This document shows positions 12,763 to 30,925 of a stretch of DNA of 33,710 nucleotides, piece by piece. Source of the stretch: Marivita sp. (GTDB lineage: Bacteria; Pseudomonadota; Alphaproteobacteria; Rhodobacterales; Rhodobacteraceae); assembly GCF_017643905.1 (NCBI RefSeq), contig NZ_JAEPMO010000031.1, positions 1 through 33,710 of the forward strand, written 5' to 3'. Position 1 is the first letter of the stretch. Each line of letters begins with the position of its first letter. Below the pieces are notes generated by a model that saw nothing but the letters and a program-made list of their open reading frames with translations, had not been told where the DNA came from and made no database searches. Position numbers and translations under genes: made by a program.

Positions 12763-13434
12763 CCCTGTGCCCGTCCCCTGGATTGACGTGTCGCGCCCTG
12801 CGTCGTGGTTGGGTTTGGCCCGGGCTTTCGCGGTCCAGGCAATCTATGAGCGAACTGAAAGCTATTGATATGGTTTTTTGTGGGTGCGCACTCGCGAATT
12901 CGCAAAATAGCAAGTTGGAATACATGGATAAGACATGCACCGGCGGTCCAAGATCGTTCCGGACCATGGTTAGAGGTGACGGAATTGAACACCGTTTTCA
13001 GACTTGAACTCGGTGAGTTTGAAGATCGACCCAAGTCCGAAAAGCATAGATGCGGTCCTGTCTCGGGCAAAAACGCGACCCTTGCTTTCATGGATGATAT
13101 TGGTGAAAGACCCCCCAAAAAAGAGTCATCATTTTTCTCGTTGCTTCTCATTGGTTGCAGCGCTCTGAAGGCGTGATGTGCCCTCAGACGATGTTGGTAT
13201 CGACCTGAAAGCTATGTTTATGACTGAATTGGCGGCGAGGAACGGAAGGCCATGCAAATTGCCAGGCGCTGGGTCAAAAATGCATGCATGGTTGCCGAGG
13301 CTGCAACAGCATTTTTTGCGCTGCCTAAGGCGTTTTTACCGCACTTACGGCGGTTTTGGTCGACGGGTTGACTTTCATCATGTGCATTGTGATGGCCCTA
13401 ACCAGCCCGATCTTCTGCTGATGAAAGTACGAAG
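12763..13434. other. Gene-free stretch between hydrolase relic and fadB-like relic
   Basis: These 672 bp hold several open frames of 60-130 codons on both strands, none with a recognisable domain. A short plus-strand frame (ATG 13252, 39 codons) has a GGAAGG site, but its product matches nothing I know. The composition is less GC-rich than neighbouring genes. I read it as degraded DNA plus, at the right end, whatever promoter served the fadB-like gene. Confidence 0.35.
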
Positions 13435-14751
13435 ATGATCTGCGACGAAAGCGTTGTTCGCACAGAGATACTGAATGGTTTTGGCATAGTGACGATAGAC
13501 AACCCACCGGTTAACGCCGGCTCAACTGCGGTGCGGCAGGGTTTGCTGGCATGTCTGGCCGAAGCGTCGAAAATGGACCTCCAGGGTGTCATCATCATTG
13601 GGGCAGGTCGCAGTTTCATGGCCGGATCGGACATCAAGGAATTTGGCGCTCCGCTGGTGCCCCCGGAACTGCCGCAAGTGATCTAGGCGATTGAGGATTG
13701 CCCACATCCGGTATGCGCTGCGATCCATGGTGCGGCTCTTGGTGGTGGGTTCGAACTGGCCTTGGGTTGCGATCTGGTGCTTGAAGCCGTTTTTAAAGAC
13801 ATGGCCGTGAAGAAAGAGCTCTTCGGCGCGTTGGATGCCATCCTGAAACCCGGCGCGATCCTCGCGACAAATACGTCTTACCTCGACATCGACGAGATGG
13901 CTGCCGTCACATCGCGCGCTGAGAATGTGCTCGGCCTGCATTTCTTCAGCCCTGCCGATATCATGAAGTTTCTTGAAGTTGTGCGCACCAACGACACGTC
14001 CGCTGACACATTGGCGACGGCACTGAATTTGGCAAAGAAGCTAGGAAAGCAGCCCGTGGTGGCGCGGGTGGCCGAGGGCTTCATCGGCAACCGCATCTAC
14101 GCCGCGTATCGGCGGCATGCCGAATTCCTGATCGAAGAGGGCGCAACCCCCCAAGACGTTGATACTGCTGCGACGGAGTTTGGTTTTGCCATGGGCCCGT
14201 TTGCAGTGGGGGATATGTCTGGTCTCGACATTGCCTGGAACATGCGCAAATGGCAGGCGGCAACCCGCGATCCCGCCACGCGCTATGTCGAGATATCGGA
14301 CAGGCTCTGCGAAGCGGGCCGGTTCGACCGCAAGACGAACGGCGGCTGTTACGATTACGATACCGGCGAAGCGCATCCGTCAGACGCAGCGATCATTGAC
14401 GAGGCCCGCGCCTCCAAGGGTATCACGCACCATGTGTTCTCAGTTGAAGACATTCAGGACCGACTGCTGGGTGCGATCCTCAATGAAGCCGCTTTGGTTC
14501 TTGAGAAGGGCGTGGCGCAGCGCTCTGGCGATATCGACGTGACACTTGTTCACGGTTATGGCTTTCCTCGTTGGACCGGGGGGCCGATTTGGTGGGCTTC
14601 CGGCCAACCAATGAAGCGGATCAAAGCTATGGTGGCTGCCGTATCCACCTCTGCAGGTCCAAAAGCCCCGAGCGGCTCGGTCGAGGATATGCTGGCGCTG
14701 TTGCGGGCCGAGCGGAAAGAAATTGATAGAAGGAAGTCCGGCGATGCGTGA
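13435..14751 (+). pseudogene. Fused enoyl-CoA hydratase / 3-hydroxyacyl-CoA dehydrogenase with stop and internal deletion
   Basis: The frame begins as the crotonase domain of a FadB/FadJ-type protein (IVTIDNPPVNAG, GRSFMAGSDIKEFG) and meets TAG at 13684-13686. It then resumes in the same frame with CPHPVCAAIHGAALGGGFEL. Right after ALGCD (about 13768-13773) the text jumps to LVLEAVFKDMAVKKELFGAL, which belongs to the dehydrogenase NAD domain. Lost are the second half of the crotonase domain, the linker and the GxGxxG nucleotide motif, roughly 250 residues. From there to 14751 the protein is normal (GLHFFSPADIMKFLEVV; GYGFPRWTGGP). The 3' end overlaps the thiolase gene by 8 bp, showing the original operon. 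Neither activity should survive. Confidence 0.88.
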
Positions 14752-15949
14752 CGTTTACATCTGCGATTACATCCGAACCCCCATAGGGCGTTACGGTGGT
14801 GCATTGTCATCAGTCCGGCCGGATGATCTGGGGGCGGTGCCTATGCGCACCTTGATGGAGCGCAACCAGGGTGTTGATTGGGCGTCGGTGGACGAGGTGA
14901 TCTATGGCTGCGCCAATCAGGCAGGTGAAGACAACCGCAATGTTGCGCGCATGTCGCTGCTGCTGGCGGGTCTGCCTGAAACGGTACCCGGCACGACGAT
15001 GAACCGGCTTTGCGGGTCGGGCATGGATGCGGTGATCACGGCGGCGCGGGCCATCCGCGCAGGGGAGACCGAGCTGATGATTGCGGGTGGTGTTGAGAGC
15101 ATGTCGCGCGCGCCCTTCGTGATGCCCAAGGCCGACAGTGCCTTTTCGCGCAGCGCGTCAATCTACGACACAACCATTGGCTGGCGCTTCGTCAATCCTC
15201 TGATCAAAGCGCAATACGGCATCGATTCGATGCCCGAGACAGCTGAGAACGTCGCTGAAGATTTCTCTGTAAGCCGCGAGGATCAGGACGCTTTTGCGCT
15301 TAGGTCCCAGCATAAGGCTGGGATCGCAATGCAAAACGGTCGGCTGGCGCAGGAGATCACACCGGTCAGCATCCCGCAGCGAAAGGGAGCCCCCCGGATC
15401 GTCGACACTGACGAACACCCGCGTCCGGAAACGACGCTCGAGGCTCTCGCAAAGTTGCCTGCGCCTTTCCGCGAAGGCGGGTCGGTCACGGCGGGAAATG
15501 CCTCGGGCGTCAACGATGGCGCCGCGGCACTCATCCTCGCGTCTGAGGCGGCGGCCAACGCAAACGGTCTGACGCCGATTGCGCGGGTCTTGGGCGGAGC
15601 GACCGCTGGTGTGCCGCCACGGATCATGGGGTTCGGGCCGGCGCCTGCCTCGAAAAAGCTGATGGCACGGTTGGGTCTGTCGCAATCCGACTTTGACGTG
15701 ATCGAGCTGAACGAGGCCTTTGCCAGCCAAGGCCTTGCCACCTTGCGAGATCTGGGCATTGCGGATGACGATCCCCGAGTGAACCCCAATGGTGGTGCAA
15801 TCGCGCTTGGTCATCCGCTGGGCATGTCAGGCGCGCGGATTGTCGGCTCTGCGGTGTTGGAGTTGCAGGTCACACGCGGCAAACGCGCGCTGTCGACTAT
15901 GTGCATCGGTGTAGGACAGGGGATTGCAGTGGCCATTGAAGCCGTGTGA
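14744..15949 (+). CDS. pcaF: Acetyl-CoA acyltransferase, 3-oxoadipyl-CoA thiolase (PcaF/PaaJ) type
   Basis: A cytoplasmic thiolase (401 residues) that cleaves 3-oxoacyl-CoA with CoA to acetyl-CoA and a shortened acyl-CoA. The active site is complete: Cys90 in NRLCGSGMDAV, His357 in GGAIALGHPLGMSGAR and Cys387 in MCIGVGQG. The stretch DTTIGWRFVNPLIKAQYGID and the NASGVNDGAAALILASE block are characteristic of 3-oxoadipyl-CoA thiolases of the beta-ketoadipate and phenylacetate pathways. AGAAGGAAG lies 7 bases before ATG 14744. It overlaps the end of the disrupted fadB-like gene, so its expression may now depend on a truncated operon. The exact substrate (oxoadipyl-CoA versus other 3-oxoacyl-CoA) is inferred. 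Confidence 0.93.
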   Translation: MRDVYICDYIRTPIGRYGGALSSVRPDDLGAVPMRTLMERNQGVDWASVDEVIYGCANQAGEDNRNVARMSLLLAGLPETVPGTTMNRLCGSGMDAVITAARAIRAGETELMIAGGVESMSRAPFVMPKADSAFSRSASIYDTTIGWRFVNPLIKAQYGIDSMPETAENVAEDFSVSREDQDAFALRSQHKAGIAMQNGRLAQEITPVSIPQRKGAPRIVDTDEHPRPETTLEALAKLPAPFREGGSVTAGNASGVNDGAAALILASEAAANANGLTPIARVLGGATAGVPPRIMGFGPAPASKKLMARLGLSQSDFDVIELNEAFASQGLATLRDLGIADDDPRVNPNGGAIALGHPLGMSGARIVGSAVLELQVTRGKRALSTMCIGVGQGIAVAIEAV

Positions 15950-16166: not shown

Positions 16167-17027
16167 CTAAAGCGCATTCCAGAATGCTTCGGCTGCGGGG
16201 CCCAAATGGCGGTCATCGGAGCGAATTTTGCGTAATTGCCGACGGGTCTCCGGGTCTCGCGGCATGAGAAAGGCCAGCTCTTCGGGTTGATGTTGCAATG
16301 CACCGCGCGGCAGGATCGTGGCCCCGAGACCCGCGCGTACAAAGGAGAGCAGAGCGGTTGTGTTGCGGGCCTCCAGATTGCAGGCCTCCAAAAGCTCTGT
16401 CACGCGTGGATGGTCGACAAGGTGGCAAAGCGGGTTTGCGATGAGAGGTTCCCGCTCGAGCAGGTCCCACGAAAGAGCGCAGCCGTCCGCAATCGCCCGC
16501 GAGATCTGGCCATCCTTCCGACAGACAATACCAAGGTCGTCTTCGAGGATAAGATTGCCGTTTGCCGGATCGTCCGGTGTCGCCGACAGGATACCGATAT
16601 CGGCGGCGTCGAGTTTGACCCGTTGGCGCACCGCCGCGCTGTCCAGGTCGCTGATTTCGAGCCTCACGTCCGGGCGGATGCGGCGGAACGCGGCGATCAC
16701 CTCGGGTAAGACGGCAATCGTCGCCGAGGGCACAGCTGCAATTCGGACGGTGCCCGCGGTAGAGATTGCGTGTCTTCCGATGGCCTCGATGCTGCGGGAA
16801 AATGCATCCGTGGCACGGCTGCTTTCCTCCAATACGAGCTGACCGAGCGGCGTCAGCCGGTTCTTGCGGTCGGTCTCAAAGAGGGGCGCGCCTATGTCGG
16901 CCTCCAATTGGGCGAGCGTCATCGACACGGCTGAGGGCGTTCGGGCGAGCAGCGAGGAGGCCGCGATAAGGGATCCCTGCTCGGCGACGATCCGGAAAGT
17001 GCGAAGCATTTCAAGCTTGATAGCCAT
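16167..17027 (-). CDS. LysR family transcriptional regulator
   Basis: A 286-residue LysR protein. The N-terminal winged helix (KLEMLRTFRIVAEQGSLIAA ... PSAVSMTLAQLEADIGAPLF) is followed by a linker helix and a periplasmic-binding-fold effector domain starting at about residue 92 (TVRIAAVPSATIAVLPEVIA). It is transcribed away from the aldehyde dehydrogenase operon. The 93-bp gap holds several TTCAGG/CCTGAA boxes, one abutting its start codon. This is the standard LysR arrangement for inducer-dependent control of the divergent operon with negative autoregulation. I expect the inducer to be the substrate or an intermediate of that operon. Confidence 0.93.
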   Translation of the reverse strand: MAIKLEMLRTFRIVAEQGSLIAASSLLARTPSAVSMTLAQLEADIGAPLFETDRKNRLTPLGQLVLEESSRATDAFSRSIEAIGRHAISTAGTVRIAAVPSATIAVLPEVIAAFRRIRPDVRLEISDLDSAAVRQRVKLDAADIGILSATPDDPANGNLILEDDLGIVCRKDGQISRAIADGCALSWDLLEREPLIANPLCHLVDHPRVTELLEACNLEARNTTALLSFVRAGLGATILPRGALQHQPEELAFLMPRDPETRRQLRKIRSDDRHLGPAAEAFWNAL

Positions 17028-17073
17028 TTCAGGTTTCCTGAAGTTGCGTTCAGATCTTCAAGATTGCCTGAAA
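17028..17073. promoter_or_regulatory. TTCAGG/CCTGAA box cluster between LysR gene and operon
   Basis: A perfect dyad TTCAGG-TTT-CCTGAA (17028-17042) touches the LysR start codon. A second, looser dyad, TTCAG (17049-17053) and CCTGAA (17067-17072), lies toward the operon. Two spaced dyads fit LysR recognition and activation sites; assignment to this LysR protein is by position. Confidence 0.55.
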
Positions 17074-17120: not shown

Positions 17121-18566
17121 ATGCAGACCGGACTCTATATTGATGGCCGCTGGGACTCCGGCGTAAGCCAGCTTGAAAATCGAAACCCGTCGGATGTGTC
17201 GGATTTGATCGGGCTCTATGCTCAGGCCGGGGCTGATCAGCTGGATGAAGCGTTGCACGCTGCCAAACGTGCGCAGGTGGCTTGGTGGGCAGCGGGCATC
17301 CAGAAACGCCACGACGTGCTGATGGCGATCGGGACCGAGTTGATGGCTCGCGCCGCAGAGATTGGTCGCATCATTGCCCGCGAGGAAGGCAAGCCGCTGG
17401 CCGAAGGCAAAGGCGAAGTCTATCGCGCCGGGCAGTTCTTTACCTATTTCGCGGGTGAGTGTCTCCGAAATCAGGGTGATCTGGCCGAAAGTGTCCGACC
17501 CGGGGTCGAGATCGACGTGCGCCGCGAGCCGGTGGGTGTGGTGGCGATCATCTCGCCCTGGAATTTCCCGGTGGCTACGCCTGCTTGGAAGATCGCCCCA
17601 GCACTTGCCTTCGGCAATTCGGTGGTCTGGAAACCCGCGAACCTGACCCCGGCCAGCGCGGTGGCCCTGACCGAGATCATTGCCAAGCAGGATATTCCTG
17701 CAGGGCTTTTCAATCTTGTCGCGGGTCCGGGCCGCGATGTTGGCCAGCGACTTGTGGAGAGCCGCGACGTGGCGGCGATCAGCTTTACCGGTTCTGTCCC
17801 CGTTGGGCGCGGTATCGCCGCTTCGGCCATCGAGAACATGACGAAGGTGCAGATGGAGATGGGGTCGAAAAACCCCATGGTCATCATGGACGACGCCGAT
17901 CTTGATCTCGCGGTCGCAAATGCTTGCGGAGCGGCCTTCGGCGGGACAGGCCAGAAATGCACCGCCGCCTCGCGCCTGATCGTCCATGCATCGATCCATG
18001 ATGCCTTCGTCGAAAAGCTGGTGACGGCGACCGAGGCGCTGAAGGTCGGTCATGCTCTGGAAGACGGTACACAGTTGGGTCCCGTGGTCAGTGAAGATCA
18101 ACTGAAGCAAAACCTCGACTATATCGATATCGGCAAAAGCGAAGGCGCGGAATTGCTGACTGGTGGAGAGCGCCTGGAGTGCGGGACCGAGGGCTACTAC
18201 ATGGCCCCCGCCATTTTCGCGGGCACAACCAACGACATGCGGATCAACCGCGAGGAAATGTTTGCGCCGATCACTTGTGTGATGAAGGCCGATAGCTATG
18301 ACGAGGCGCTGGCCATTGCCAACGACAGCGCGTTCGGCCTGACTGCCGGGATCATGACCCGCAGTCTTGCGCGTGCGAGCCACTTCCGCGCCAACATGCG
18401 GGCCGGCTGTGTGATGGTGAACCTGCCGACGGCGGGTACCGATTATCATGTCCCCTTCGGAGGGCGCGGTGCGTCCTCTTACGGCCCGCGCGAGCAGGGC
18501 ACCTATGCCGCAGAGTTCTACACATCCGTGAAGACCGCCTATGTCGCGGCGGGCGAGCCGACATGA
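17121..18566 (+). CDS. NAD(P)-dependent aldehyde dehydrogenase
   Basis: A 481-residue cytoplasmic aldehyde dehydrogenase that oxidises an aldehyde to the acid. The family motifs are intact: VAIISPWNFPVATPAWKIAP, cofactor strand FTGSVPVGR, general base Glu246 (MEMGSKNP) and nucleophile Cys280 (GTGQKCTAASRL). It also has EEMFAPITCVM and PFGGRGASSYGPREQG. Overall it resembles 2-oxoglutarate-semialdehyde / 2,5-dioxovalerate dehydrogenases, although betaine-aldehyde-type relatives are also close. GAGGA lies 6 bases before the start. It is the first gene of the LysR-controlled operon and overlaps the next gene by ATGA. The product acid is unknown. Confidence 0.92.
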   Translation: MQTGLYIDGRWDSGVSQLENRNPSDVSDLIGLYAQAGADQLDEALHAAKRAQVAWWAAGIQKRHDVLMAIGTELMARAAEIGRIIAREEGKPLAEGKGEVYRAGQFFTYFAGECLRNQGDLAESVRPGVEIDVRREPVGVVAIISPWNFPVATPAWKIAPALAFGNSVVWKPANLTPASAVALTEIIAKQDIPAGLFNLVAGPGRDVGQRLVESRDVAAISFTGSVPVGRGIAASAIENMTKVQMEMGSKNPMVIMDDADLDLAVANACGAAFGGTGQKCTAASRLIVHASIHDAFVEKLVTATEALKVGHALEDGTQLGPVVSEDQLKQNLDYIDIGKSEGAELLTGGERLECGTEGYYMAPAIFAGTTNDMRINREEMFAPITCVMKADSYDEALAIANDSAFGLTAGIMTRSLARASHFRANMRAGCVMVNLPTAGTDYHVPFGGRGASSYGPREQGTYAAEFYTSVKTAYVAAGEPT

Positions 18567-19576
18567 GCGTGCTGATCGACGGCCTGCAATATGCCAACTG
18601 GTCCGAAGAAATCTTCCGACAGATGCGCGCGGGCGGTGTGGACGCTGTGCATGTCACCATCACCTACCACGAAACGTTCCGCGAGACGGTGCTGCAGATC
18701 GAACGCTGGAACCGCTGGTTCGAACAGTTCCCAGACCTGATCTTCCAGGGCCGCACAGCCGCGGACGTCAAACTGGCGCAAGAGACCGGTCGTACGGCGA
18801 TCTTTTTTGGTTCGCAAAACCCGTCCTGTATCGAGGACGATATCGGATTGGTCGAGATCCTGCACACGCTGGGTCTGCGCTTCATGCAACTGACCTACAA
18901 CAACCAGTCGCTGCTGGCGACGGGCTGCTATGAGGATGACGACGCAGGGCTGACGCGCATGGGCCGCGAGGTTGTGGCCGAAATGAACCGGGTCGGAATG
19001 GTCGTGGACATGAGCCATTCCGGCGAACGCTCGACCCTTGAGGCGATCGAACACTCGACCCGCCCCATTGCGATCACCCATGCAAATCCCGCCAACTGGC
19101 ACGCGGCCTTGCGCAACAAGTCCGACACCGTGCTGAAGGCCTTGGGGGAAACCGGCGGGATGCTGGGTTTTTCGGTCTATCCGCATCACCTGAAGGGGGG
19201 CAGCGGTTGCACGCTGCAGGACTTCTGCGAGATGATCGCGCGGACTGCCGACGTGATGGGCATCAACCAGATCGGGATTGGCACTGATCTTTGCCAGGAT
19301 CAACCTGACAGCATTGTCGAATGGATGCGCGTCGGTCGCTGGACCAAGCGGATCGACTATGGCGAGGGCAGCGCTGCGGCGCCGGGTTTTCCTGAAATGC
19401 CCAAGTGGTTCGTCGACAACCGGGATTTCGGGAACATCCGCGCTGGCTTGCGTGCCGTTGGGATAAGCGATGCAGATGTGGACGCGGTCATGGGCGAAAA
19501 CTGGCTGCGTTTCTTCGAGACAAGTTTCAGCGGTGTCCCTGCAACGGGCGACGCGACCGCGCGCGGCGCGGAATGA
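18563..19576 (+). CDS. M19 (renal dipeptidase)-like protein with altered metal site
   Basis: A 337-residue TIM-barrel protein of the M19 membrane-dipeptidase family, without signal peptide. The family normally opens with DGHNDLP, whose His and Asp bind zinc. Here it is DGLQYANW, so both ligands are absent, and the bridging Glu region reads FFGSQNPSCIEDD. The later ligands remain: His152 in VVDMSHSG, His173 in ITHANP, and Asp in GIGTDLCQDQ. Related M19-like proteins occur next to dimethylglycine catabolism genes in Pseudomonas, which fits a role with methylated amines rather than peptides (recalled knowledge). It starts inside the aldehyde dehydrogenase stop (ATGA). The fold is certain; catalysis of dipeptide hydrolysis is unlikely. 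Confidence 0.87.
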   Translation: MSVLIDGLQYANWSEEIFRQMRAGGVDAVHVTITYHETFRETVLQIERWNRWFEQFPDLIFQGRTAADVKLAQETGRTAIFFGSQNPSCIEDDIGLVEILHTLGLRFMQLTYNNQSLLATGCYEDDDAGLTRMGREVVAEMNRVGMVVDMSHSGERSTLEAIEHSTRPIAITHANPANWHAALRNKSDTVLKALGETGGMLGFSVYPHHLKGGSGCTLQDFCEMIARTADVMGINQIGIGTDLCQDQPDSIVEWMRVGRWTKRIDYGEGSAAAPGFPEMPKWFVDNRDFGNIRAGLRAVGISDADVDAVMGENWLRFFETSFSGVPATGDATARGAE

Positions 19577-19621
19577 CCACCCGCACGGGAGGCGGGAAGA
19601 TCTTTTTTGGGGAGGACCAAA

Positions 19622-21172
19622 ATGACCGAAACGACTGAAACCAGAGCGCCTACCGCCGATTTTGGACGGGTGGATAAACCCCTGTTCGCGGTAACCGGTG
19701 GCTTTATCGCCCTGTTCTGTGCGCTGGCTCTCTACGATATCGACCTGCTGTCGCGCATGGTCGATTGGGGCTTTAACGTCTCGGCCAAGTATTTCGGCCT
19801 CTATTGGCAGGTGCTGCTGCTGGCCACGTTCCTGATCGGTCTTGTGCTATGCGTTTTGCCCGGTGCGAAGACCCGAATGGGCAATCTGGCCACACCAGAA
19901 TTCACGGTGTTCCAATGGGGCTCCATGATCATGTGCACGCTTCTGGCAGGCGGCGGCGTCTTCTGGGCTGCGGGCGAGCCGATTGCGCATTATCTCTCCA
20001 CTCCGCCGCTCTTTGGTGATCTGAGCGGTGACCCTCAGGCGCAGACCCACGCGGCGCTGGCGCAAAGCTTTTTGCATTGGGGCTTTCTTGCCTGGGCGAT
20101 CCTGGGGTCGCTGACCACGGTGATGTTGATGCATTACCACTATGACAAGGGTCTGCCCCTGGCGCCGCGCACACTTCTCTATCCGGTGTTCGGTGACAAG
20201 GCGATCAACGGTCCGATTGGCCTGATCGCGGATGCGTCATGCATCATTGCGGTGGTCGCAGGCACCGTCGGTCCGATCGGCTTTCTGGGATTGCAGATGT
20301 CCTACGGACTGAACGCGCTCTTCGGCATACCGGACACCTTCGCCACCCAGACTGTCGTGATCCTGGCGCTGGCCAGCCTTTACACCGTTTCGGCGATTTC
20401 CGGTCTGTCGAAAGGCATCCAGCTTTTGTCAAAGATCAATGTGATCCTGGCTTTCGTCCTGCTGGCTTTCATGCTTATCGCCGGTCCGACTTTCTTCATC
20501 TTTGACGGCTTTGCCGGGGGCATGGGCGTTTACCTGTCGAACTTCTTTGACATGGCGATGTATCGCGGCGAAGCGGGCTTGTTCGGCGAACCGGGCTGGC
20601 TGGGCTGGTGGACAGTGTTCTTCTGGGGCTGGTTCATGGGGTACGGTCCGCTGATGGCGATCTTCATCGCTCGTGTCAGCCGGGGCAGGTCGATCCGGTC
20701 CATCATCCTGATGCTGTCCATCGTTGCGCCTATCGTCACCAATTTCTGGTTCACCCTCATTGGTGGTACTGGCATTGGACTCGCGCAGGCAACCGCAGGC
20801 GTCATTTCAGGACCGTTCGAAGGCTTCAACCTGCCGGCTGGACTGTTGGCCATCACTCAGGCCATGCCGCTGGGCTTTTTGCTGTCGCTGCTGTTTCTTG
20901 TGCTAACGATGATCTTCGTCGCCACCACAAGCGACTCGATGAGTTACGTGATCGCAACGTCCATGTCTGACGACAATCCTTCGACTGCGCTGCGTGCCTT
21001 CTGGGGGCTTGCAATGGCGGTGATGGCACTGATCCTGATCTCGACCGGGTCGGGCGGCATCGGCAAGCTGCAAAGCTTTATCGTGGTAACGGCGGTTCCC
21101 GTGTCGCTGGTGCTGCTACCGTCGCTTTGGGATGCATTGCGCATCACGTTGATGCTGGGCAAGAAAGCCTGA
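19622..21172 (+). CDS. BCCT family transporter with non-canonical substrate box
   Basis: An inner-membrane carrier (516 residues, 12 predicted helices) of the betaine/carnitine/choline family. It is recognised by LAGGGVFWAAGEPIAHYLST, IARVSRGRSIRSIILM and FVATTSDSMSYVIA. The TM8 aromatic box, which in glycine-betaine carriers reads WAWWISWSPF, is here WGWFMGYGPL (335-344). Two box Trp positions are Phe338 and Tyr341, and the glycine-rich GxGxG helix is LLAGGG. So the substrate is probably not plain glycine betaine. GGGGAGGA is 4-11 bases before ATG 19622. It supplies the substrate for the enzymes in the same operon; the coupling ion is unclear. Confidence 0.93.
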   Translation: MTETTETRAPTADFGRVDKPLFAVTGGFIALFCALALYDIDLLSRMVDWGFNVSAKYFGLYWQVLLLATFLIGLVLCVLPGAKTRMGNLATPEFTVFQWGSMIMCTLLAGGGVFWAAGEPIAHYLSTPPLFGDLSGDPQAQTHAALAQSFLHWGFLAWAILGSLTTVMLMHYHYDKGLPLAPRTLLYPVFGDKAINGPIGLIADASCIIAVVAGTVGPIGFLGLQMSYGLNALFGIPDTFATQTVVILALASLYTVSAISGLSKGIQLLSKINVILAFVLLAFMLIAGPTFFIFDGFAGGMGVYLSNFFDMAMYRGEAGLFGEPGWLGWWTVFFWGWFMGYGPLMAIFIARVSRGRSIRSIILMLSIVAPIVTNFWFTLIGGTGIGLAQATAGVISGPFEGFNLPAGLLAITQAMPLGFLLSLLFLVLTMIFVATTSDSMSYVIATSMSDDNPSTALRAFWGLAMAVMALILISTGSGGIGKLQSFIVVTAVPVSLVLLPSLWDALRITLMLGKKA

Positions 21173-21185
21173 TCATAGTTCAATA

Positions 21186-21214
21186 GGCGCGGGCGGACCA
21201 AAACCGGCCGCGCC
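21186..21214 (+). other. Intercistronic GC-rich hairpin after the BCCT gene
   Basis: GGCGCGGGCGG (21186-21196) faces CCGGCCGCGCC (21204-21214) with one mismatch and an ACCAAAA loop, 13 bases after the transporter stop. With no T-run it more likely stabilises the upstream mRNA or limits read-through into the next gene than ends transcription. Confidence 0.4.
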
Positions 21215-21240
21215 ATGGACCGATGACCCGCGAGGACACC

Positions 21241-22920
21241 ATGGATTGCGCTTCCCTGAACCCGATGCCCGAGGCCGCAGCGTTCCGCCGTCCGCCGTCG
21301 GAAGTGATGCGGTTGGCACGGATGGGCAGCGCGCACCCGACGCGCCTGTCGTTCCTTCGAAACCTCCTGCGTCGGGTGATCGAGGAAGGGTGGACGTTCG
21401 ACCGGCCGGTCTGGGAGATCGACGCAACAGGCGTCGGACGCGCCGTCTATCGCGCCACTGGGCCGGATCGAACATACTCGTTGGTGGCATTCGCGCATGA
21501 TCTGCCTGACGAGATGCGCTCGGACCGTGTGATCGCCACAGCCTGGGATGCAACCTTCGCTCTCTTCGACGGGGAACCCACATCCGCTGATCTGGACCGC
21601 TTGCAGGCCAACGTTCCACTCCAGGAAGCCGGTCGCGTCAGCCCTCTGGAACTGACGCTGAGCCGTGCAAACCGCTCGGTGCGGCTGTTCGGCCATGTCA
21701 TCGAACGGCTTGCCAAAGGGTTGCAGCCCGACATGGCCGAGGTCGAGGCGGTCGGATACCTGATGCGGACCACAGCCGTTTATGGTTCTGGCAAGTTCGG
21801 TGCCGCCGACCGCGCCGCCATTGCGGATAGACCTGAACTTAGCGCACCCTTTCAGGCCGAGATGCTGTCGGTCTGGCTGACACGCCAATTCACTGTAGAC
21901 ATCGCGGAACACTTGGCCTTCGTTCGCGGCGGAGCCGCAGCGGTGCGGCTGGATTCTGCCATCAAGAAAGGGCTGGGTGTCGGCAATTCCACCGGGCTCG
22001 GTATGGCCCCGTTCCTGGTGCGCCACCCCGTGTTGTTGAACAACTGGATGATGGCGCGCGAAGAGGCACTTGCGCGCGTCCGATCGCAAGATGGGGCAAG
22101 TGCCGAAGCGGTGGCCGGTTTCCGTACGGCCCTTGGGGAAGCGAGAGAGAATGCCGAGCTGTGGCAGTCAAGCCATCCGATCCAGATCGAGAAACTCGCC
22201 GCCTTGCGAGATGACCTTTCTAGTCTCGCCGACCGGATCTCGACCTGGCCTGAACGGAATTCGCAAAAGCCCTGGGACGCGCTCTGGCACTGGGGCGAGA
22301 CCGCATTGTCGCTGGAAGGACAGGAGGCGTTGATCGCGCTGATGCTTGAGCCAAATGGTGATCTTGTCGACGGGCTGGCCGATTGCATGACGGCGGACGA
22401 AGGAGCTTCGTTCCGGCTGGATGGTGCCATGACCGTAGCGACACTGTCTGCCAGCCTGAGAGACCACTACGATTGGGTGCTGGGCATTGATTTCGATCAG
22501 CCAGAAAACGTTGCGCGGTTCTGGTACGTCTCCGAGGAAAAGCTGGAACCACGGCTGGGCAATCGGTTCGAGGAGGACGGCGCGTCGCTCGAGCAACCGT
22601 TGTGCATAGCTCGGCTGGCGCAAGACCTTCATTCGGCACTGGCAGCCTGGCCCGGCGATGTCGCATTGGCGGCATTCCTGCTGGCCCATCCCGAGCATCG
22701 GTTCATGGCGAGGCGGGTACAAATCCTTCACCGCTATCCCTATGCCGAGGTGCAGGACAACCTGATCGCTGAACAGATGCTGCCGATCGATCTGATGCGC
22801 TGCAAGCTGGCCTTCTTCGGTGCCAGCCGTTTCGACCCACGGTCCGACAAATGGGTGCGGATCAGCCTGTTTCAGGGGCTGCCATATCCTTCGGACATGT
22901 CCCCGGAAGGCTGGCCATGA
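21241..22920 (+). CDS. Large conserved-looking protein of unknown function
   Basis: I do not recognise a named domain in this 559-residue protein. It is soluble, with no signal peptide and no long hydrophobic segment, mixed alpha/beta in appearance and rich in charged residues. Distinct segments are VYRATGPDRTYSLVAFAHDL near residue 70, AIKKGLGVGNSTGLGMAPFL near 245 (a Gly-rich loop that could hold a phosphate or cofactor) and ENVARFWYVSEEKLEPRLGN near 425. I prefer ATG 21241, with AGGA 5 bases upstream, over ATG 21223. Its end overlaps the DUF3726 gene by ATGA, so the two are co-translated and probably work together. It is encoded between a BCCT carrier and a RidA gene, so an enzymatic or assembly role in the same pathway is likely. 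Confidence 0.8.
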   Translation: MDCASLNPMPEAAAFRRPPSEVMRLARMGSAHPTRLSFLRNLLRRVIEEGWTFDRPVWEIDATGVGRAVYRATGPDRTYSLVAFAHDLPDEMRSDRVIATAWDATFALFDGEPTSADLDRLQANVPLQEAGRVSPLELTLSRANRSVRLFGHVIERLAKGLQPDMAEVEAVGYLMRTTAVYGSGKFGAADRAAIADRPELSAPFQAEMLSVWLTRQFTVDIAEHLAFVRGGAAAVRLDSAIKKGLGVGNSTGLGMAPFLVRHPVLLNNWMMAREEALARVRSQDGASAEAVAGFRTALGEARENAELWQSSHPIQIEKLAALRDDLSSLADRISTWPERNSQKPWDALWHWGETALSLEGQEALIALMLEPNGDLVDGLADCMTADEGASFRLDGAMTVATLSASLRDHYDWVLGIDFDQPENVARFWYVSEEKLEPRLGNRFEEDGASLEQPLCIARLAQDLHSALAAWPGDVALAAFLLAHPEHRFMARRVQILHRYPYAEVQDNLIAEQMLPIDLMRCKLAFFGASRFDPRSDKWVRISLFQGLPYPSDMSPEGWP

Positions 22921-23651
22921 CCGCAGAGCAGCAAGAGGCTGTCGAAGCCAACGATCCGACCCGTTCCGGGTCACCCGTGCCCACCACCAACGGCGCACGG
23001 CTTTCGCAGAACGAGATCGAGCAGTTGTGCCTTAAAGCCGCGCGTGGCGCTGGGATGAGTTGGGGACTGGCCGAGGAGGCGGGCTTTGCTGCCGCCTGGC
23101 TGGCAACGCGCGGTCTGGACGGACCCGGTGCCTTATTGGCCCAGCTTTGGGTGGGGCAGGGCCGCTCTTGGCGTGAGATATGTCCGGTGATTGCGCCTGG
23201 ACGATTTCGGGCAGCGGATGGCGGGGGTCTATGCCCAATCGCGCTTGGGGCAGCGTTGTGCGATCATGCAAGGCTTCCTGAGACGTCGCTGGTCGAAACC
23301 GCCGTTCGGGTCGGCCCGGTCGATCATCCGGTCCTTCTGTTGCCATTCTTGGCTGACTTCGCTCGGACCCGGCGCGAGGGCCTGCGGCTGGTCTGGTCCC
23401 GCGGCGCGGTTCTGTTGACCGCGGATGGCGGGATGTTCGGTGATGCGGCTGCACTTGAGCAAGAGACGCGGCTGGACGCCGCGCTCGAGGTCGAAGGCCC
23501 CGTTCCGGATGACACCTCGACACAATGGGAACCACTTATGGTGTCTGCGGAAACGTTGGGTGAACTCAATTCATTCGCTTTGCGCATCACGGTGCCGACG
23601 TCCGAGGTCTCACGCGCGGGGGCCGGCGCCGCGATAGGTGACAACGACTGA
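22917..23651 (+). CDS. DUF3726 domain protein
   Basis: A 244-residue protein. After a variable 32-residue N-terminus it shows the DUF3726 opening LSQNEIEQLCLKAARGAGMS followed by WGLAEEAGFAAAWLATRGL. Function is unknown; members have no assigned catalytic residues. It begins inside the stop codon of the preceding 559-residue gene (ATGA), suggesting a fixed-ratio partnership, and ends 17 bases before the RidA gene. Internal Ala/Gly/Leu-rich stretches are not long enough for membrane helices. I recognise the family from its N-terminal signature only. Confidence 0.8.
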   Translation: MTAEQQEAVEANDPTRSGSPVPTTNGARLSQNEIEQLCLKAARGAGMSWGLAEEAGFAAAWLATRGLDGPGALLAQLWVGQGRSWREICPVIAPGRFRAADGGGLCPIALGAALCDHARLPETSLVETAVRVGPVDHPVLLLPFLADFARTRREGLRLVWSRGAVLLTADGGMFGDAAALEQETRLDAALEVEGPVPDDTSTQWEPLMVSAETLGELNSFALRITVPTSEVSRAGAGAAIGDND

Positions 23652-23668
23652 AACAGGAGATTAGGCGA

Positions 23669-24022
23669 ATGACGGTTCAAAGGTTGCACCCGGGGAGTCG
23701 CATGAGCGAAGCGGTCCGCATCGGGGATATCGTGTTCCTTGCGGGTCAGATCCCCGATGATCTGACGGGCGACATCGCGAAACAGACTCGGGAAGTGTTG
23801 GACAATATCGACGCGGTGATGGCCGAACTGGGTGGCAGCAAGGCCGACATCGCGTCGGTTCAAGTCTGGCTCAGCGATCTGTCGGATTTTCAAGGTATGA
23901 ATGCGGTTTGGGACGCGTGGGTCGATCTCGCCAACCCACCGGCCCGGGCAACCTGCGGTGTGGCTCTTGCGCGTCCCGGAATGCGCGTAGAGATGATCGT
24001 GGTTGCGCGCGCGCCGAAGTGA
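23669..24022 (+). CDS. RidA family protein (enamine/imine deaminase fold)
   Basis: A 117-residue YjgF/RidA-fold trimer subunit. RidA proteins hydrolyse reactive enamines and imines made by PLP enzymes, or act as deaminases in catabolic pathways. The conserved substrate-binding Arg is seen in PPARATCGVALARPGMRVEM, and VFLAGQIPDDLTGD matches the usual GQxP loop. The spacing DLSDFQGMNAVWDAWVDLAN is typical of the family. It is the last gene of the LysR operon, 17 bases after DUF3726, with AGGAGA upstream. Its presence hints that the pathway forms an imine or enamine, for example after oxidative removal of an N-substituent. That is inference. Confidence 0.92.
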   Translation: MTVQRLHPGSRMSEAVRIGDIVFLAGQIPDDLTGDIAKQTREVLDNIDAVMAELGGSKADIASVQVWLSDLSDFQGMNAVWDAWVDLANPPARATCGVALARPGMRVEMIVVARAPK

Positions 24023-24111: not shown

Positions 24112-25125
24112 TCACAGATTTTCTGCGATAAGGATTTCTATTCTGATGCGTTCCTGCGAGGCGAGGGTGCTTCTGTTCTCGCATTTCGCCCTCAGAATTC
24201 GGACGGCACTACGTACAAGGTGACCCGGATCCTGATGGATCACGGCGTCGATTTCACCGCTCCGCAGCGCGGCTTCGGTCGAGAGGGTGCGCTCATGGGC
24301 GATAACAACAAGGCGATTGATTGCATTCAATTGGCCTCCGACTTCGATCGGAGTGCGTGCCTCTGCCCCCATGATGTAAAGCCCTACGACGTCATCGTGT
24401 GCGTCCAAAGCGTTGCGCAGTACATGTCGGGTGCGTCCCGGATCCCCGTGCGTTTCAAGGGTAGGGAGGACGCGCAGATTGGTATAATCGCGGTTGACGA
24501 CCCCATCAAAGCCAAGGCGCCGTTCAAGGCTGTCGCGGGATTGGGTGGTCTCGGTCAGAGCGATGACAGTGCCCTGCCTTTGTCCAAGGAACCGTCCCAT
24601 CAGGCGGCCAGCCGTCGCCCCGGCGGCGCGGTTGTCAATGCCCACAAAGCCGTCTTCCTGCTGATTGGCAACAAAGGGAATCGTCTCGATCCCGCGCTCG
24701 CGCATTCGGTGAAGCGCGTCACGGATTTGAGGCGTCTCGGGCGCCATAATAGCAATCCCGTCGATTTTGTCTGGTGACAGACGACCAAGGGTGCGGGCGG
24801 CTTCGTGTGGATCGCGGTCATCAATGCGGATCACCTCGGTCTCGATCATCTCGGCTCGGCCAACCCGGTCAAACTCGCGGATGCGTTCAATGATTTCGTC
24901 AAGGAATTCTCCGCCGGACCGGGGCACGGCAAAGGCAAAGCGATAGGCCCGCTGCCGCGCCAAAGTGGCTGCGATCTGGTTGCGTTCAAAGCCGATTCTC
25001 TTGATCGCGTCATTGACGGTGGCAATGGTTTTCTTGCGGACGCCAGAGCGGCCATTCAACACGCGATCGACTGTTGCCAGGCTCACGCCAGCGGCTTTCG
25101 CAAGGTCTTTTGTGGTCGGACGCAT
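24112..25125 (-). CDS. LacI family transcriptional regulator
   Basis: A 337-residue LacI-type repressor. The HTH is TTKDLAKAAGVSLATVDRVL with the hinge helix around ERNQIAATLARQ, followed by a sugar-binding-protein-like core (FAFAVPRSGGEFLDEIIERI; DGIAIMAPETPQIRDAL; DGFVGIDNRAAGATAGRLMG). I start at 25125, where the HTH begins as usual; the frame is open to 25212, but that extra stretch would run into operator DNA. It is divergent from the ABC/dihydroxyacetone-kinase operon, with two strong palindromes between. The inducer is probably the transported polyol or ketose. Confidence 0.93.
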   Translation of the reverse strand: MRPTTKDLAKAAGVSLATVDRVLNGRSGVRKKTIATVNDAIKRIGFERNQIAATLARQRAYRFAFAVPRSGGEFLDEIIERIREFDRVGRAEMIETEVIRIDDRDPHEAARTLGRLSPDKIDGIAIMAPETPQIRDALHRMRERGIETIPFVANQQEDGFVGIDNRAAGATAGRLMGRFLGQRQGTVIALTETTQSRDSLERRLGFDGVVNRDYTNLRVLPTLETHGDPGRTRHVLRNALDAHDDVVGLYIMGAEARTPIEVGGQLNAINRLVVIAHERTLSTEAALRSGEIDAVIHQDPGHLVRSAVRILRAKCENRSTLASQERIRIEILIAENL

Positions 25126-25200
25126 GAGGCCGTTTTCTCGATATTTCCGTTGTTTTCTTGAGGTTTGTTGCAGACTTGCAGAGTGTGGACAAGCCCTAAA

Positions 25201-25246
25201 TGAGGTACGCACCTCAGAAACGTGTTGATCTGAGGTGCGTACCTCA
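25201..25246. promoter_or_regulatory. Two mirror-image 16-bp LacI operators
   Basis: TGAGGTACGCACCTCA (25201-25216) and TGAGGTGCGTACCTCA (25231-25246) are each near-perfect dyads and are exact reverse complements of one another. Both have the central CpG typical of LacI-family operators. Their centres are 30 bp apart, about three helical turns, so two dimers would sit on the same face of the DNA. They lie 68-113 bp upstream of the binding-protein ATG and 76 bp from the LacI start, and should control both directions. Confidence 0.8.
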
Positions 25247-25313
25247 ATTAAGCCTAGTGATCAGTCGAGTCGCGGCAGGAGGGCTGCGGCAGCGTAACTG
25301 GGAGGCTATCTAA

Positions 25314-26636
25314 ATGAATACCAAACACTTGATGACGGCTGCCGTTTCGGCATTGATCGCGGGCGGGGCTGCAACCTCGGCTGCGGCAGAAGACCTGACG
25401 CTGTGTTGGGCGGCGTGGGACCCTGCGAATGCGCTGGTCGAGCTGTCGAAAGACTTCGAAGCGCAGTCGGGTCATAATATGAGCTTTGAATTCGTGCCAT
25501 GGCCGAATTTCGCAGACCGGATGCTGAACGAACTGAACTCTGGCGGCAAGCTCTGCGACCTGATGATCGGTGACAGCCAGTGGATCGGGGCGGGCGCTGA
25601 GAACGGTCACTACGTGAAGCTGAATGACTTCTTCGACGCCAATGGCATCGACATGGCCGATTTCATTCCCGCAACCGTCACCGGGTATTCCGAATGGCCC
25701 AAGAACACGCCGAACTATTGGGCGCTGCCCGCTTTCGGCGACGTGGTTGGTTGGACCTACCGCAAGGATTGGTTTGAACGTCCTGAAATCGCAGCGGAAT
25801 TCAAAGACAAGTACGGGCGTGACCTTGGCGTTCCGACCACGCTGGAAGAACTGAAGGACATCGCTCAGTTTTTCCAAGGCCGAGACATCGACGGCACCAC
25901 CGTTTATGGTGCCGCAATCTACACCGAGCGGGGGTCCGAAGGGATCACGATGGGCGTGACCAACGCCCTCTACAACTATGGTTTCCTTTATGAAAACCCT
26001 GAAAAGCCATACGATCTGGAAGGTTTCGTAAACTCGGCAGGCGCGGTTGCAGGCCTAGAGTTCTACAAGGAGCTCTATGACACCGCGACACCTCCGGGAT
26101 CGTCCAACTGGTACATGGGCGAAAATATCGACGCCTATCGGTCTGGCCAGGTCGCGTTGCAGATGAACTTTGCGTTCATCTGGCCGGGCGTCGAGGCTGA
26201 CCCGAACGTCGGTGGCGGCAAGTCTGGGTATTTCCCGAACCCCACAGGCCCCGCAGGCCAGTTCGCTCAGCTTGGCGGTCAGGGGATTTCGGTCGTTGCC
26301 TATTCCGACAAGCAGGATGCGGCGCTGGAATATATCCAGTGGTTTGCACAGCCGGAAATCCAGGCCCGTTGGTGGGAACTGGGCGGCTATTCGGCCCTGC
26401 GTGCTGTGGTCGAAGACCCCGGTTTTGCCAGCAGCCAGCCTTACGCACAGACCTTCCTCGACAGCATGGCCATCGTGAAGGACTTCTGGGCGGAACCGGC
26501 CTATGCCGATCTTCTGCTGCCGATGCAGGAACGTATCCACAACTATGTCATTGCAGGCGAGGGCACCGCTCAGGACGCTCTGGATGGCTTGGTTCGTGAT
26601 TGGATCGAAGTCTTCGAGGACGAAGGCAAGCTCTGA
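25314..26636 (+). CDS. ABC transporter sugar/polyol-binding protein (family 1)
   Basis: A periplasmic binding protein of 440 residues. A signal peptide (MNTKHLMTAAVSALIAGGAA to about residue 25, cut near SAAAED) precedes a family-1 solute-binding fold: LCDLMIGDSQWIGAGAENGH, WALPAFGDVVGWTYRKDWF and YIQWFAQPEIQARWW. It resembles binding proteins of the rhizobial glycerol-type (GlpV-like) and other polyol importers. GGGAGG precedes the start. It is the first gene after the operators, and an 11-bp hairpin follows it, consistent with higher expression than the membrane subunits. The ligand is likely a small polyol or triose, inferred from the kinase at the operon's end. Confidence 0.93.
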   Translation: MNTKHLMTAAVSALIAGGAATSAAAEDLTLCWAAWDPANALVELSKDFEAQSGHNMSFEFVPWPNFADRMLNELNSGGKLCDLMIGDSQWIGAGAENGHYVKLNDFFDANGIDMADFIPATVTGYSEWPKNTPNYWALPAFGDVVGWTYRKDWFERPEIAAEFKDKYGRDLGVPTTLEELKDIAQFFQGRDIDGTTVYGAAIYTERGSEGITMGVTNALYNYGFLYENPEKPYDLEGFVNSAGAVAGLEFYKELYDTATPPGSSNWYMGENIDAYRSGQVALQMNFAFIWPGVEADPNVGGGKSGYFPNPTGPAGQFAQLGGQGISVVAYSDKQDAALEYIQWFAQPEIQARWWELGGYSALRAVVEDPGFASSQPYAQTFLDSMAIVKDFWAEPAYADLLLPMQERIHNYVIAGEGTAQDALDGLVRDWIEVFEDEGKL

Positions 26637-26672
26637 CGCTTCTCCCTCCAGGGGCGCGTGACGTCCCGAACG

Positions 26673-26701
26673 CCCTTGGCGACTTTTCCGGTCGCCAAGG
26701 G
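26673..26701 (+). other. Perfect 11-bp hairpin between binding-protein and permease genes
   Basis: CCCTTGGCGAC (26673-26683) pairs perfectly with GTCGCCAAGGG (26691-26701) around a TTTTCCG loop, in the 121-bp gap after the binding-protein gene. There is no strong T-run after it. Such hairpins usually protect the 5' binding-protein mRNA or cause partial termination. Confidence 0.6.
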
Positions 26702-26757
26702 CCGTTTAACCATAACTTTGGCGCGGGGTGCAAGACTTCGCGTGTTGGGGCAGAACA

Positions 26758-27705
26758 ATGACTGACACACCCATCCACAAGGTCGCACAGGCAACGCCCG
26801 AGTCCATGGCGCGACGCATTCGTGGCCTGTCGGATCGCACAATCGCCTGGATCTTCGTGGCACCCACGATCTTCCTGTTGCTGGCGGTCAACATCTTTCC
26901 GCTGATCTGGACGATCCGGCTAAGCTTTACCGATTACCGGGTGAACCGTCCGAACCGTGAGGTGGAATGGGTCGGTCTGCAGAATTACGAACGCATCCTG
27001 TCGGACCCGGATATCTGGGCGACGATGCAAGCCACCGCGCATTTCCTGATCTGGACGATTGTCCTGCAGGTGCTGATCGGGTTCGCGCTGGCCTTCCTGA
27101 TCAACAAGAAGTTTCGGGGCAACGACCTCTGGACGACGATCATCGTCTTTCCGATGATGCTCTCGCCCGCCGTGGTCGGGAATTTCTGGACATTTCTCTA
27201 CCAGCCGCAGATCGGATTGTTCAACTACGTGGTTGCCTTTGTCACTGGTGCCGATCCTGCAAGCTTTTCGATGATTGGCGACGTACATCTTGCACCGTGG
27301 GCGATTATCATCGCCGACACGTGGATGTGGACGCCATTTGTGATGCTGATCTGTCTTGCTGGTCTCAGGTCGATCCCGGACAGCATCTACGAAGCAGCGG
27401 AATGTGACCGCGCCAGCAAATGGCGCCAATTCTGGACCATCACCGTTCCCATGGTACTGCCCTTCCTGATGCTCGCCGTTCTTTTCCGGGGGATCGAGAA
27501 TTTCAAGATGTTTGACCTTGTCGTGCAGCTCACAGGCGGAGGTCCAGGCAACACCACGACCCTGACCTCGATCGACCTCAAGCGGGAAGCGTTTGAGAAG
27601 TGGCGCACGGGCTATTCCTCGGCCTACGCGGTAATCCTGTTTGTCACCGTCTTTGGCCTCGCCTCGATCTACGTCAAAGCGCTGAACAAGGTGAAAGAAA
27701 GATGA
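26758..27705 (+). CDS. ABC transporter permease, MalF/UgpA-like
   Basis: An inner-membrane subunit of 315 residues with about six membrane segments. The first (WIFVAPTIFLLLAVNIFPLI) follows a 35-residue polar N-terminus. The EAA loop is SIPDSIYEAAECDRASKWRQ, and LTGGGPGNTTTLTSIDLKRE marks the sugar-permease branch. The start at 26758 has GGGGCAG upstream; an in-frame start at 26728 is possible. Its stop overlaps the second permease by ATGA. It should pair with that protein as a heterodimer. Confidence 0.93.
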   Translation: MTDTPIHKVAQATPESMARRIRGLSDRTIAWIFVAPTIFLLLAVNIFPLIWTIRLSFTDYRVNRPNREVEWVGLQNYERILSDPDIWATMQATAHFLIWTIVLQVLIGFALAFLINKKFRGNDLWTTIIVFPMMLSPAVVGNFWTFLYQPQIGLFNYVVAFVTGADPASFSMIGDVHLAPWAIIIADTWMWTPFVMLICLAGLRSIPDSIYEAAECDRASKWRQFWTITVPMVLPFLMLAVLFRGIENFKMFDLVVQLTGGGPGNTTTLTSIDLKREAFEKWRTGYSSAYAVILFVTVFGLASIYVKALNKVKER

Positions 27706-28640
27706 GCTTTTCCGTCACAGAACCCAGCAACGGGACCAAGTGGTTCGCTGGCATCCTTGTCATCGGCTACGCGCTGATCACCATCGCACCGCTTTTGTGG
27801 ATCATTGCCACCGGCTTCAAATCCGGCCCGGATTCCATTGCTTACCCGCCGAAAGTGGTGTTCGAGCCGACGCTTGAAGGCTACGTCAACCTCTTCACCG
27901 ACCGCACCCGCGCCACACAGGACATGCTAGACGCAGCGGGCGAGCCGCAGACATGGTACGACCAGATCGCCCGCGATCAGGGCACGGTCATCACCGGCCC
28001 GTCGCGCTATGGCGAACGGTTCATGAACTCGGTCATCATTGGGTTCGGTTCAACTGCGCTGTGCATGCTCTTGGGCACTGCTGCGGCCTATGCGTTCAGC
28101 CGGTTCCGCGTGCCGCTGAAGGACGATCTGCTGTTCTTCATCCTGTCGACGCGGATGATGCCACCCATCGCTGTTGCGATCCCGATCTTTCTGATGTTTC
28201 GACAACTGGGCCTGAGCGATACGCATCTTGGGATGATCCTGCTCTACACTGCGGTGAACCTGTCGCTGTCGGTCTGGCTGCTCAAGGGGTTCATCGACGA
28301 AATTCCCGTGGAATACGAAGAAGCGGCGCTTATCGACGGCTACACACGCTTTCAGGCTTTCTACAAGGTGGTGCTGCCGCAAGCGGCCACGGGCATCGCC
28401 TCGACTGCGATCTTCTGCCTGATCTTTGCGTGGAACGAATACGCCTTTGCGGTCCTTCTGACGTCCGGGACGGCCCAGACAGCGCCGCCGTTCATCCCAA
28501 CGATCATCGGCACTTCGGGCAAGGACTGGCCCGCCGTCGCCGCCGGTGCCACGATCTTCCTTGTGCCGGTCATGGTCTTCACCATCCTGCTGCGCAAGCA
28601 CCTGTTGCGCGGGATCACCTTCGGAGCGGTGCGCAAATGA
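27702..28640 (+). CDS. ABC transporter permease, MalG/UgpE-like
   Basis: The second permease (312 residues). It has six predicted helices and the EAA loop EYEEAALIDGYTRFQAFYKV. The first periplasmic region contains an extra polar stretch of about 40 residues (from FTDRTRATQDMLDAAG to GPSRYGERF), as in glycerol-type permeases of this family. It starts within the stop of the first permease and ends overlapping the small membrane gene, so three membrane proteins are translated in series. Confidence 0.93.
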   Translation: MSFSVTEPSNGTKWFAGILVIGYALITIAPLLWIIATGFKSGPDSIAYPPKVVFEPTLEGYVNLFTDRTRATQDMLDAAGEPQTWYDQIARDQGTVITGPSRYGERFMNSVIIGFGSTALCMLLGTAAAYAFSRFRVPLKDDLLFFILSTRMMPPIAVAIPIFLMFRQLGLSDTHLGMILLYTAVNLSLSVWLLKGFIDEIPVEYEEAALIDGYTRFQAFYKVVLPQAATGIASTAIFCLIFAWNEYAFAVLLTSGTAQTAPPFIPTIIGTSGKDWPAVAAGATIFLVPVMVFTILLRKHLLRGITFGAVRK

Positions 28641-28825
28641 GCAACTTCATCTCAGGACTGCTGCGGTTCCGCCGTGGCCCGTGGGAAATGCTGGCGTCAA
28701 TCCTGATTGCGCTCGGGGTTGTCATGCTGATGCAGCCCTTTGCGATCACGCTCTACAGCTGGTCTTTCCTGATCACCCTTATCGGCACGGTGATATTCAT
28801 CATCGTCAGCCACTTCCCGGAGTAA
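28637..28825 (+). CDS. Small membrane protein (62 aa) inside the ABC operon
   Basis: This gene encodes a 62-residue protein starting in the ATGA overlap with the second permease and ending 3 bases before the first ATPase. After a basic N-terminus (MSNFISGLLRFRRGPWE) it has two hydrophobic segments (MLASILIALGVVMLMQPFAI and SWSFLITLIGTVIFIIVS), so both ends should face the cytoplasm. Its position matches the small gene (glpU) of the rhizobial glycerol ABC operon, whose role is unknown. Tight coupling on both sides argues that it is a real gene and perhaps a transporter accessory subunit. Confidence 0.82.
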   Translation: MSNFISGLLRFRRGPWEMLASILIALGVVMLMQPFAITLYSWSFLITLIGTVIFIIVSHFPE

Positions 28826-28828
28826 CCC

Positions 28829-30914: not shown

Positions 30915-30925
30915 GGGAGGATATC

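Follow-up and report, generated by a model that had tools for sequence, protein, structure and literature searches.

The stretch of DNA analysed here, hereafter the window, comprises the 33,710 nucleotides of contig NZ_JAEPMO010000031.1 from the alphaproteobacterium Marivita sp., and it contains six genes that lie in series behind a divergently oriented regulator gene. This arrangement, including two ATGA overlaps, had been proposed in the original prediction and is borne out by the open reading frames (ORFs), the start and stop codons and the Pfam matches. A LysR-family gene on the reverse strand (16167..17027) encodes the predicted pathway regulator. On the forward strand follow genes for an aldehyde dehydrogenase (ALDH; 17121..18566), an M19-fold protein (18563..19576), a BCCT-family transporter that we predict to import a betaine (19622..21172), a conserved protein of 559 amino acids that we call P559 (21241..22920), a DUF3726 protein (22917..23651) and a RidA-family imine/enamine hydrolase (23669..24022). 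The overlaps join ALDH to M19 at position 18563 and P559 to DUF3726 at 22917, and the remaining intergenic gaps measure 45, 68 and 17 bases. P559 is present as a single copy in its own genome. As was also noted originally, Pfam reveals no Rieske, flavin adenine dinucleotide (FAD) demethylase or CoA-ligase gene among the six.

To establish how commonly these genes travel together, public genome contigs were scanned with a P559 profile, which yielded at least 576 relatives. The best 80 loci of these were used, and a flank filter (at least 5 kb upstream and at least 4 kb downstream) kept 65 and excluded 15. Within 9 kb of P559 in these 65 loci we found DUF3726 in 65, M19 in 63, ALDH in 55 and LysR in 52, such that the genes do not rarely co-occur, the outcome that had been named as fatal to the original prediction. 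Less constant are RidA (19 loci), BCCT (18 loci) and a gene of the Ldh_2 family at 45% identity or more (23 loci); this threshold, like those of 49% for Ldh_2 and of 53, 60 and 64% for Mgd used below, was chosen post hoc. Further counts refer to a set of 114 loci, into which at least three genomes were entered twice (L046/L066, L055/L078 and L036/L106). Neighbouring genes were called by tblastn and homology-supported ORFs, since the AT-rich loci L051 and L054 are unsuited to a GC-based gene caller. In a survey of gene clusters L140 and L060 had no P559 ORF call, although tblastn does detect P559 in L060.

The association also holds when approached from DUF3726 and over greater evolutionary distances. 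Among 101 relatives of the source genome, DUF3726 is present in 34 (own genome included) and P559 in 35. All 34 DUF3726 places outside the window were retrieved (33 genomes, one with two), and tblastn places P559 at all 34 and M19 at 31. An even sample of the phylum, comprising 299 genomes with the source genome among them, has P559 in 22, eight of which lie outside the class. Twelve loci from this sample were retrieved, six of them from outside the class, and five of those six keep the window order LysR, ALDH, M19, BCCT, P559, with a RidA gene inserted between LysR and ALDH in two of the five; the sequence of the sixth, L201, is cut upstream. A PF12525 protein directly follows P559 in L197 and L198, the two outside-class loci scanned there. 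Four genomes (G232, G216, G315 and G017) have two P559 copies, and two loci with full flanks (L126 and L139) have P559 and DUF3726 but no M19 that tblastn could find. The grouping is not due to chance, as this set of genes is found repeatedly within the family, more widely in the class and in other proteobacteria. M19, P559 and DUF3726 are the most constant part of one co-inherited catabolic operon.

A candidate control region is evident upstream. Pattern searches and aligned intergenic regions identify two predicted operator sites in the gap between LysR and ALDH: a perfect 15-base palindrome, TTCAGGTTTCCTGAA (17028..17042), predicted to be a LysR operator, and a second site on the forward strand, TTCAAGATTGCCTGAA (17057..17072), predicted to be part of the same operator. 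The pattern TTCA(A/G)N5-6CTGAA matches the window three times when both strands are searched, and all three matches fall in this gap, whereas 100 shuffles gave a mean of 0.24 matches and none reached three. The first site, in the form TTCA(A/G)N5CTGAA, is exact in 8 and changed in 4 of 12 aligned intergenic regions, which are those of the window and of 11 loci hand-picked among its nearer relatives.

P559 is without a recognizable family. No Pfam match was obtained even at an E-value of 10, none was found in NCBIfam, and no PDB sequence matched. Its structural model scores well (predicted local distance difference test, pLDDT, 89.4; predicted template modelling score, pTM, 0.91), but a Foldseek comparison with the PDB returned 83 matches at E 10 and none at 0.001, with probabilities of at most 0.14 among the best 50 of the 83. 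Profile comparison did not show P559 to be akin to Ldh_2 or DUF3726. The DUF3726 model (pLDDT 88.6; pTM 0.83) behaves differently, in that the top 27 PDB matches all belong to the Ldh_2 family, with probabilities of 0.82-1.00, at E-values of 2e-3 or worse (none at 0.001) and with template modelling scores below 0.5. The profile match between DUF3726 and the Ldh_2 proteins of other operons spans 48 N-terminal columns only (E 4.7e-4; probability 33%). In L197 the divergent DUF3726 protein scores above the cut-off of PF12525 and also above that of PF02615 (for Ldh_2, 41.4 versus 38.8 bits), and the window protein has no Ldh_2 match in Pfam. Missing from DUF3726 is the histidine of the SHG motif, which we take to be catalytic in Ldh_2, as the aligned stretch ends in GLDGPG rather than VASHG. 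By modelled fold, DUF3726 would thus be a shortened relative of Ldh_2, an assignment that is good but not certain. We predict that it is the partner of P559, itself the putative core enzyme subunit.

The nearest NCBIfam model of the ALDH is GucD, a 2-oxoglutarate-semialdehyde dehydrogenase, with a score of 502.5 bits that lies below the cut-off of 770, and 4o6r is the one PDB entry that it matches at E 1e-90. The M19 protein (family match of 251 bits in Pfam) has a remodelled active site. Dipeptidases of this family bind their two zinc ions through HxD, Glu, His and His. The N-terminal HxD is missing, since the Pfam match starts only at profile position 35 and DGLQYANW stands near the N-terminus, in agreement with the earlier suggestion that the usual N-terminal ligands are lost. 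In addition, alignments reveal Gln85 in place of the ligand Glu and Tyr112 in place of the active-site His, while His152, His173, Arg184 and Asp242 are retained. The binuclear zinc set is therefore incomplete, with HxD and Glu gone and both His present. The six residues from Gln85 to Asp242 do not vary in any of the 90 rows, and Gln9 and Cys244 are also invariant among the operon copies. The nearest solved relative, 2i5g, which is presumably the product of a gene adjoining dimethylglycine-demethylase genes in Pseudomonas, has likewise lost HxD and the ligand Glu, but has Ile and Thr where the operon proteins have Gln9 and Cys244. The transporter matches BCCT at 485.5 bits in Pfam. The zwitterion importer of the original prediction finds support in that a betaine-type importer, either BCCT of two kinds or an OpuA-type ABC system, lies within 6 kb at 42 of the 114 loci.

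The operons differ in the gene that we predict to complete the pathway, since the window RidA gene holds the position that Ldh_2 occupies at other loci, often those of the Roseobacter type. With RidA genes counted on either strand, 38 of the 114 loci carry Ldh_2, 27 carry RidA, 49 carry neither and none carries both. Joint occurrence is also absent from the 65 filtered loci, and the chance of no overlap between groups of 23 and 19 is 3.6e-5 if relatedness is ignored. One genome, G017, has a locus of each type (Ldh_2 in L039 and RidA in L043). The nearest solved match of Ldh_2 is the delta1-piperideine-2-carboxylate reductase DpkA (1wtj; 1.6e-55, the next being 7.3e-38), whose fold is in part common to DUF3726, although the latter is shorter and lacks the SHG histidine. 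Proteins of the Ldh_2 family with at least 49% identity occur in 12 of the 101 relatives, all among the 35 with P559 (chance 7e-7, again ignoring relatedness), and after a gap the next identities are 45% and below, in genomes with and without P559. None of 18 RidA-type genomes searched reaches 49% (best identity 46%). Outside the class, RidA-family genes are found at four of the six loci by Pfam and at a fifth, L202, by eye, and no Ldh_2 match occurs in any of the six. The four detected by Pfam sit just after the DUF3726 gene in L197 and L199 and upstream of ALDH in L198 and L200. The window RidA matches its family in Pfam, and R93 and E108, which we take to be catalytic, are conserved without exception in 17 rows. 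The mutual exclusion of a putative imine reductase and a putative imine hydrolase suggests that both forms share an imine intermediate. Three further loci (L072, L079 and L097) have an Ldh_2 paralogue after P559 (38% identity in L079) and MttB-family and OYE-like cluster genes just upstream of LysR (the L072 copies were scanned); these perhaps represent a third form of the pathway.

A link to N-methylglutamate metabolism is suggested by SoxBDAG/MgdABCD-like genes at four loci, L090, L107, L114 and L133 (the L133 genes were scanned), with an AraC-type gene of one cluster near them in L090, L114 and L133. This resembles the arrangement in Ruegeria pomeroyi, where tmaR adjoins mgdABCD (PMC13390433). 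The same paper states that Mgd takes part in homarine catabolism, with reference to work by Ferrer-Gonzalez et al. (Nat Microbiol 11:1531, 2026). The Mgd alpha subunits of the four loci join a clade (support 99/98) with gmaS-linked copies of genomes G000 and G108, and a separate six-row clade (100/100) adjoins genes that we took by eye for ccmI. We take TIGR03105, a type III glutamine synthetase-like family, to represent gmaS. Of 21 genomes that have a gmaS-type gene over the cut-off, 10 (G000, G003, G004, G013, G016, G042, G108, G120, G128 and G129) encode an alpha subunit with at least 68% identity no more than 19 kb away from it. Among the genomes of the four loci with mgd-like genes, a gmaS-type gene over the cut-off is present in G104 and in none of G101, G102 and G103, the last of which is possibly incomplete. 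The window genome carries two Mgd alpha copies (73 and 71% identity) and a gmaS-type gene. Copies with 53-57% identity (five Ldh_2-type and four RidA-type calls) form a sister group of less certain function in the tree, and the Ldh_2-type genome G089 has gmaS with a 47% copy only. A SoxA-like neighbour gene in L075 was rejected as Mgd (46% identity) and, being cut, was omitted from the tree.

We believe, with a probability of about 0.55, that the operon, under LysR control, serves to take up and degrade a pyridinium-carboxylate betaine with an N-methyl group, homarine being the likeliest. Homarine serves diatoms as an osmolyte and is cleared by Ruegeria pomeroyi within hours (PMC12817926), and a 2022 paper counts it with the compounds for which no transporter had been confirmed in that strain (PMC9723723). 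In the proposed scheme, BCCT would import the betaine, and P559, DUF3726 and the M19-like protein would jointly dearomatise it, cleave the ring and release one carbon to give the N-methylimine of 2-oxoglutarate semialdehyde. This product would then be oxidised by ALDH to N-methyl-2-iminoglutarate. A DpkA-like enzyme would reduce this imine to N-methylglutamate in Ldh_2-type bacteria, with Mgd then demethylating it to glutamate. In the window, RidA would instead hydrolyse the imine to 2-oxoglutarate and methylamine, and the genome could assimilate the methylamine via its gmaS-type and mgd-type genes. It is possible, although we would rather bet against it, that P559, the His-less DUF3726 protein of Ldh_2 fold as its NAD(P)H-binding partner and the remodelled M19 protein form a novel type of enzyme, of new fold, that dearomatises and opens N-methylpyridinium rings without an oxygenase. 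The two interchangeable endings would then determine whether the nitrogen is released as methylamine or kept as N-methylglutamate.

Several observations count against the homarine proposal. Both the substrate and the individual steps are what we infer from gene content, and ring opening by P559, DUF3726 and M19 is assigned by elimination, P559 having neither a family nor a fold that hints at ring chemistry. ALDH is missing from 10 of the 65 loci, and at 72 of the 114 loci no transporter of the three kinds is encoded within 6 kb. Neither ending lies nearby at 49 of the 114 loci, some of which carry an Ldh_2 paralogue of 36-42% identity, and looser clustering gives RidA together with an Ldh_2 paralogue at two loci (L068 and L073). 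The co-occurrence with Mgd is also modest and depends on post-hoc thresholds. At 53% identity Mgd occurs in 28 of 31 P559-positive and 20 of 30 P559-negative genomes of the family (p 0.03), and at 60% in 17 of 31 and 9 of 30 (p 0.07). In the panel of 44 genomes (duplicates G125 and G059 excluded), Ldh_2-type and RidA-type genomes compare as 23 of 25 versus 11 of 19 at 53% (p 0.011) and 18 of 25 versus 7 of 19 at 64% (p 0.03). Mgd without gmaS is seen in nine Ldh_2-type and five RidA-type genomes at 53% (four and two at 64%), and eight RidA-type genomes but one Ldh_2-type genome have neither Mgd (53%) nor gmaS. Given these counts, we reject both a regular association of Mgd with P559 and the strict view that the RidA form can do without Mgd.

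Three other explanations deserve consideration. The same genes might act on a different N-methylated amino-acid betaine, such as that of proline, hydroxyproline or pipecolate, and yield N-methylglutamate or 2-oxoglutarate. We regard this as unlikely but worth keeping in mind: the similarity of the ALDH to 2-oxoglutarate-semialdehyde dehydrogenases, the presumed genomic setting of 2i5g and the MttB-family and OYE-like genes near a few loci would all suit it. However, no Rieske or demethylase gene appears among the identified recurrent neighbours (rare clusters were left unannotated), and it is not obvious why the breakdown of a saturated N-methyl ring should call for a dedicated imine reductase or RidA. 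Less probable still is that RidA and Ldh_2 are side genes or serve general detoxification, and that lineage alone accounts for their mutual exclusion. Ending labels do cluster on the P559 tree (111 rows, with L046 and L055 left out), which requires 7 changes versus 20.8 with shuffled labels; the many loci with neither gene also fit, as does the fact that some of the 27 RidA genes stand outside the operon and are encoded on the opposite strand. Yet well-supported branches demand at least four of the label changes, P559 genomes are the only ones among the 101 relatives to have Ldh_2 at 49% or more, and RidA proteins of different loci fall to 34-41% identity to that of the window. A substrate that is not a pyridine, for example an aminosulfonate or an ectoine-type solute, seems very improbable to us. 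BCCT carriers accept several zwitterions, and the nearest NCBIfam model of Ldh_2 is a sulfolactate dehydrogenase (175.8 bits against a cut-off of 500), but the linkage to Mgd and the imine reductase that is the nearest solved relative of Ldh_2 both speak against such a solute.

The homarine reading also bears on how much of this system is already known. The homarine genes of Ferrer-Gonzalez and colleagues are reportedly named homABCDER, with a route via N-methylglutamate. If this name denotes five catabolic genes and a regulator, they would presumably fit ALDH, M19, P559, DUF3726, Ldh_2 and LysR. The published pathway shares a betaine substrate and the involvement of Mgd with the role proposed here, whereas the window operon carries RidA and BCCT and no Ldh_2. 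A search of titles and abstracts found no paper naming the operon genes, and neither DUF3726 nor homABCDER is mentioned in any of the papers searched. The trigonelline (tgn) pathway likewise involves a pyridinium betaine, an aldehyde dehydrogenase and the release of methylamine, but its ring is opened by a flavin monooxygenase, and none is present among the six window genes. Of the original description of a complete but unnamed pathway, the single co-inherited catabolic operon stands. Completeness is unsupported because the Ldh_2 form seems to need Mgd, which is usually coded elsewhere, and 'unnamed' is probably unsupported because a conserved homarine pathway involving Mgd was described in 2026, for which no better candidate than this operon was found. 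The Ldh_2 form is probably that pathway. New are the RidA/BCCT variant, the nature of DUF3726, the remodelled M19 protein and P559, which is without a relative of known fold.

Adjoining the operon, positions 24112-32548 hold genes for a LacI regulator, a sugar-type solute-binding protein and an ABC transporter and a dihydroxyacetone kinase-like gene, apparently as a separate operon. On the other side, a fatty-acid oxidation gene at 13300-14751 that we named by eye as an enoyl-CoA hydratase/3-hydroxyacyl-CoA dehydrogenase type looks broken, with an in-frame stop and the middle part between two domains seemingly missing. It is followed by a 3-oxoadipyl-CoA thiolase gene (14723-15949) that scores above its NCBIfam cut-off.

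If the homarine proposal is true, P559 and DUF3726 would serve as markers of homarine catabolism in Rhodobacterales, in SAR116, in a small alphaproteobacterium of 1.4 Mb and in proteobacteria of other classes. A candidate homarine importer and a fold for DUF3726 would be further gains. Moreover, two groups of bacteria would then turn one substrate into different nitrogen products, either methylamine or glutamate.

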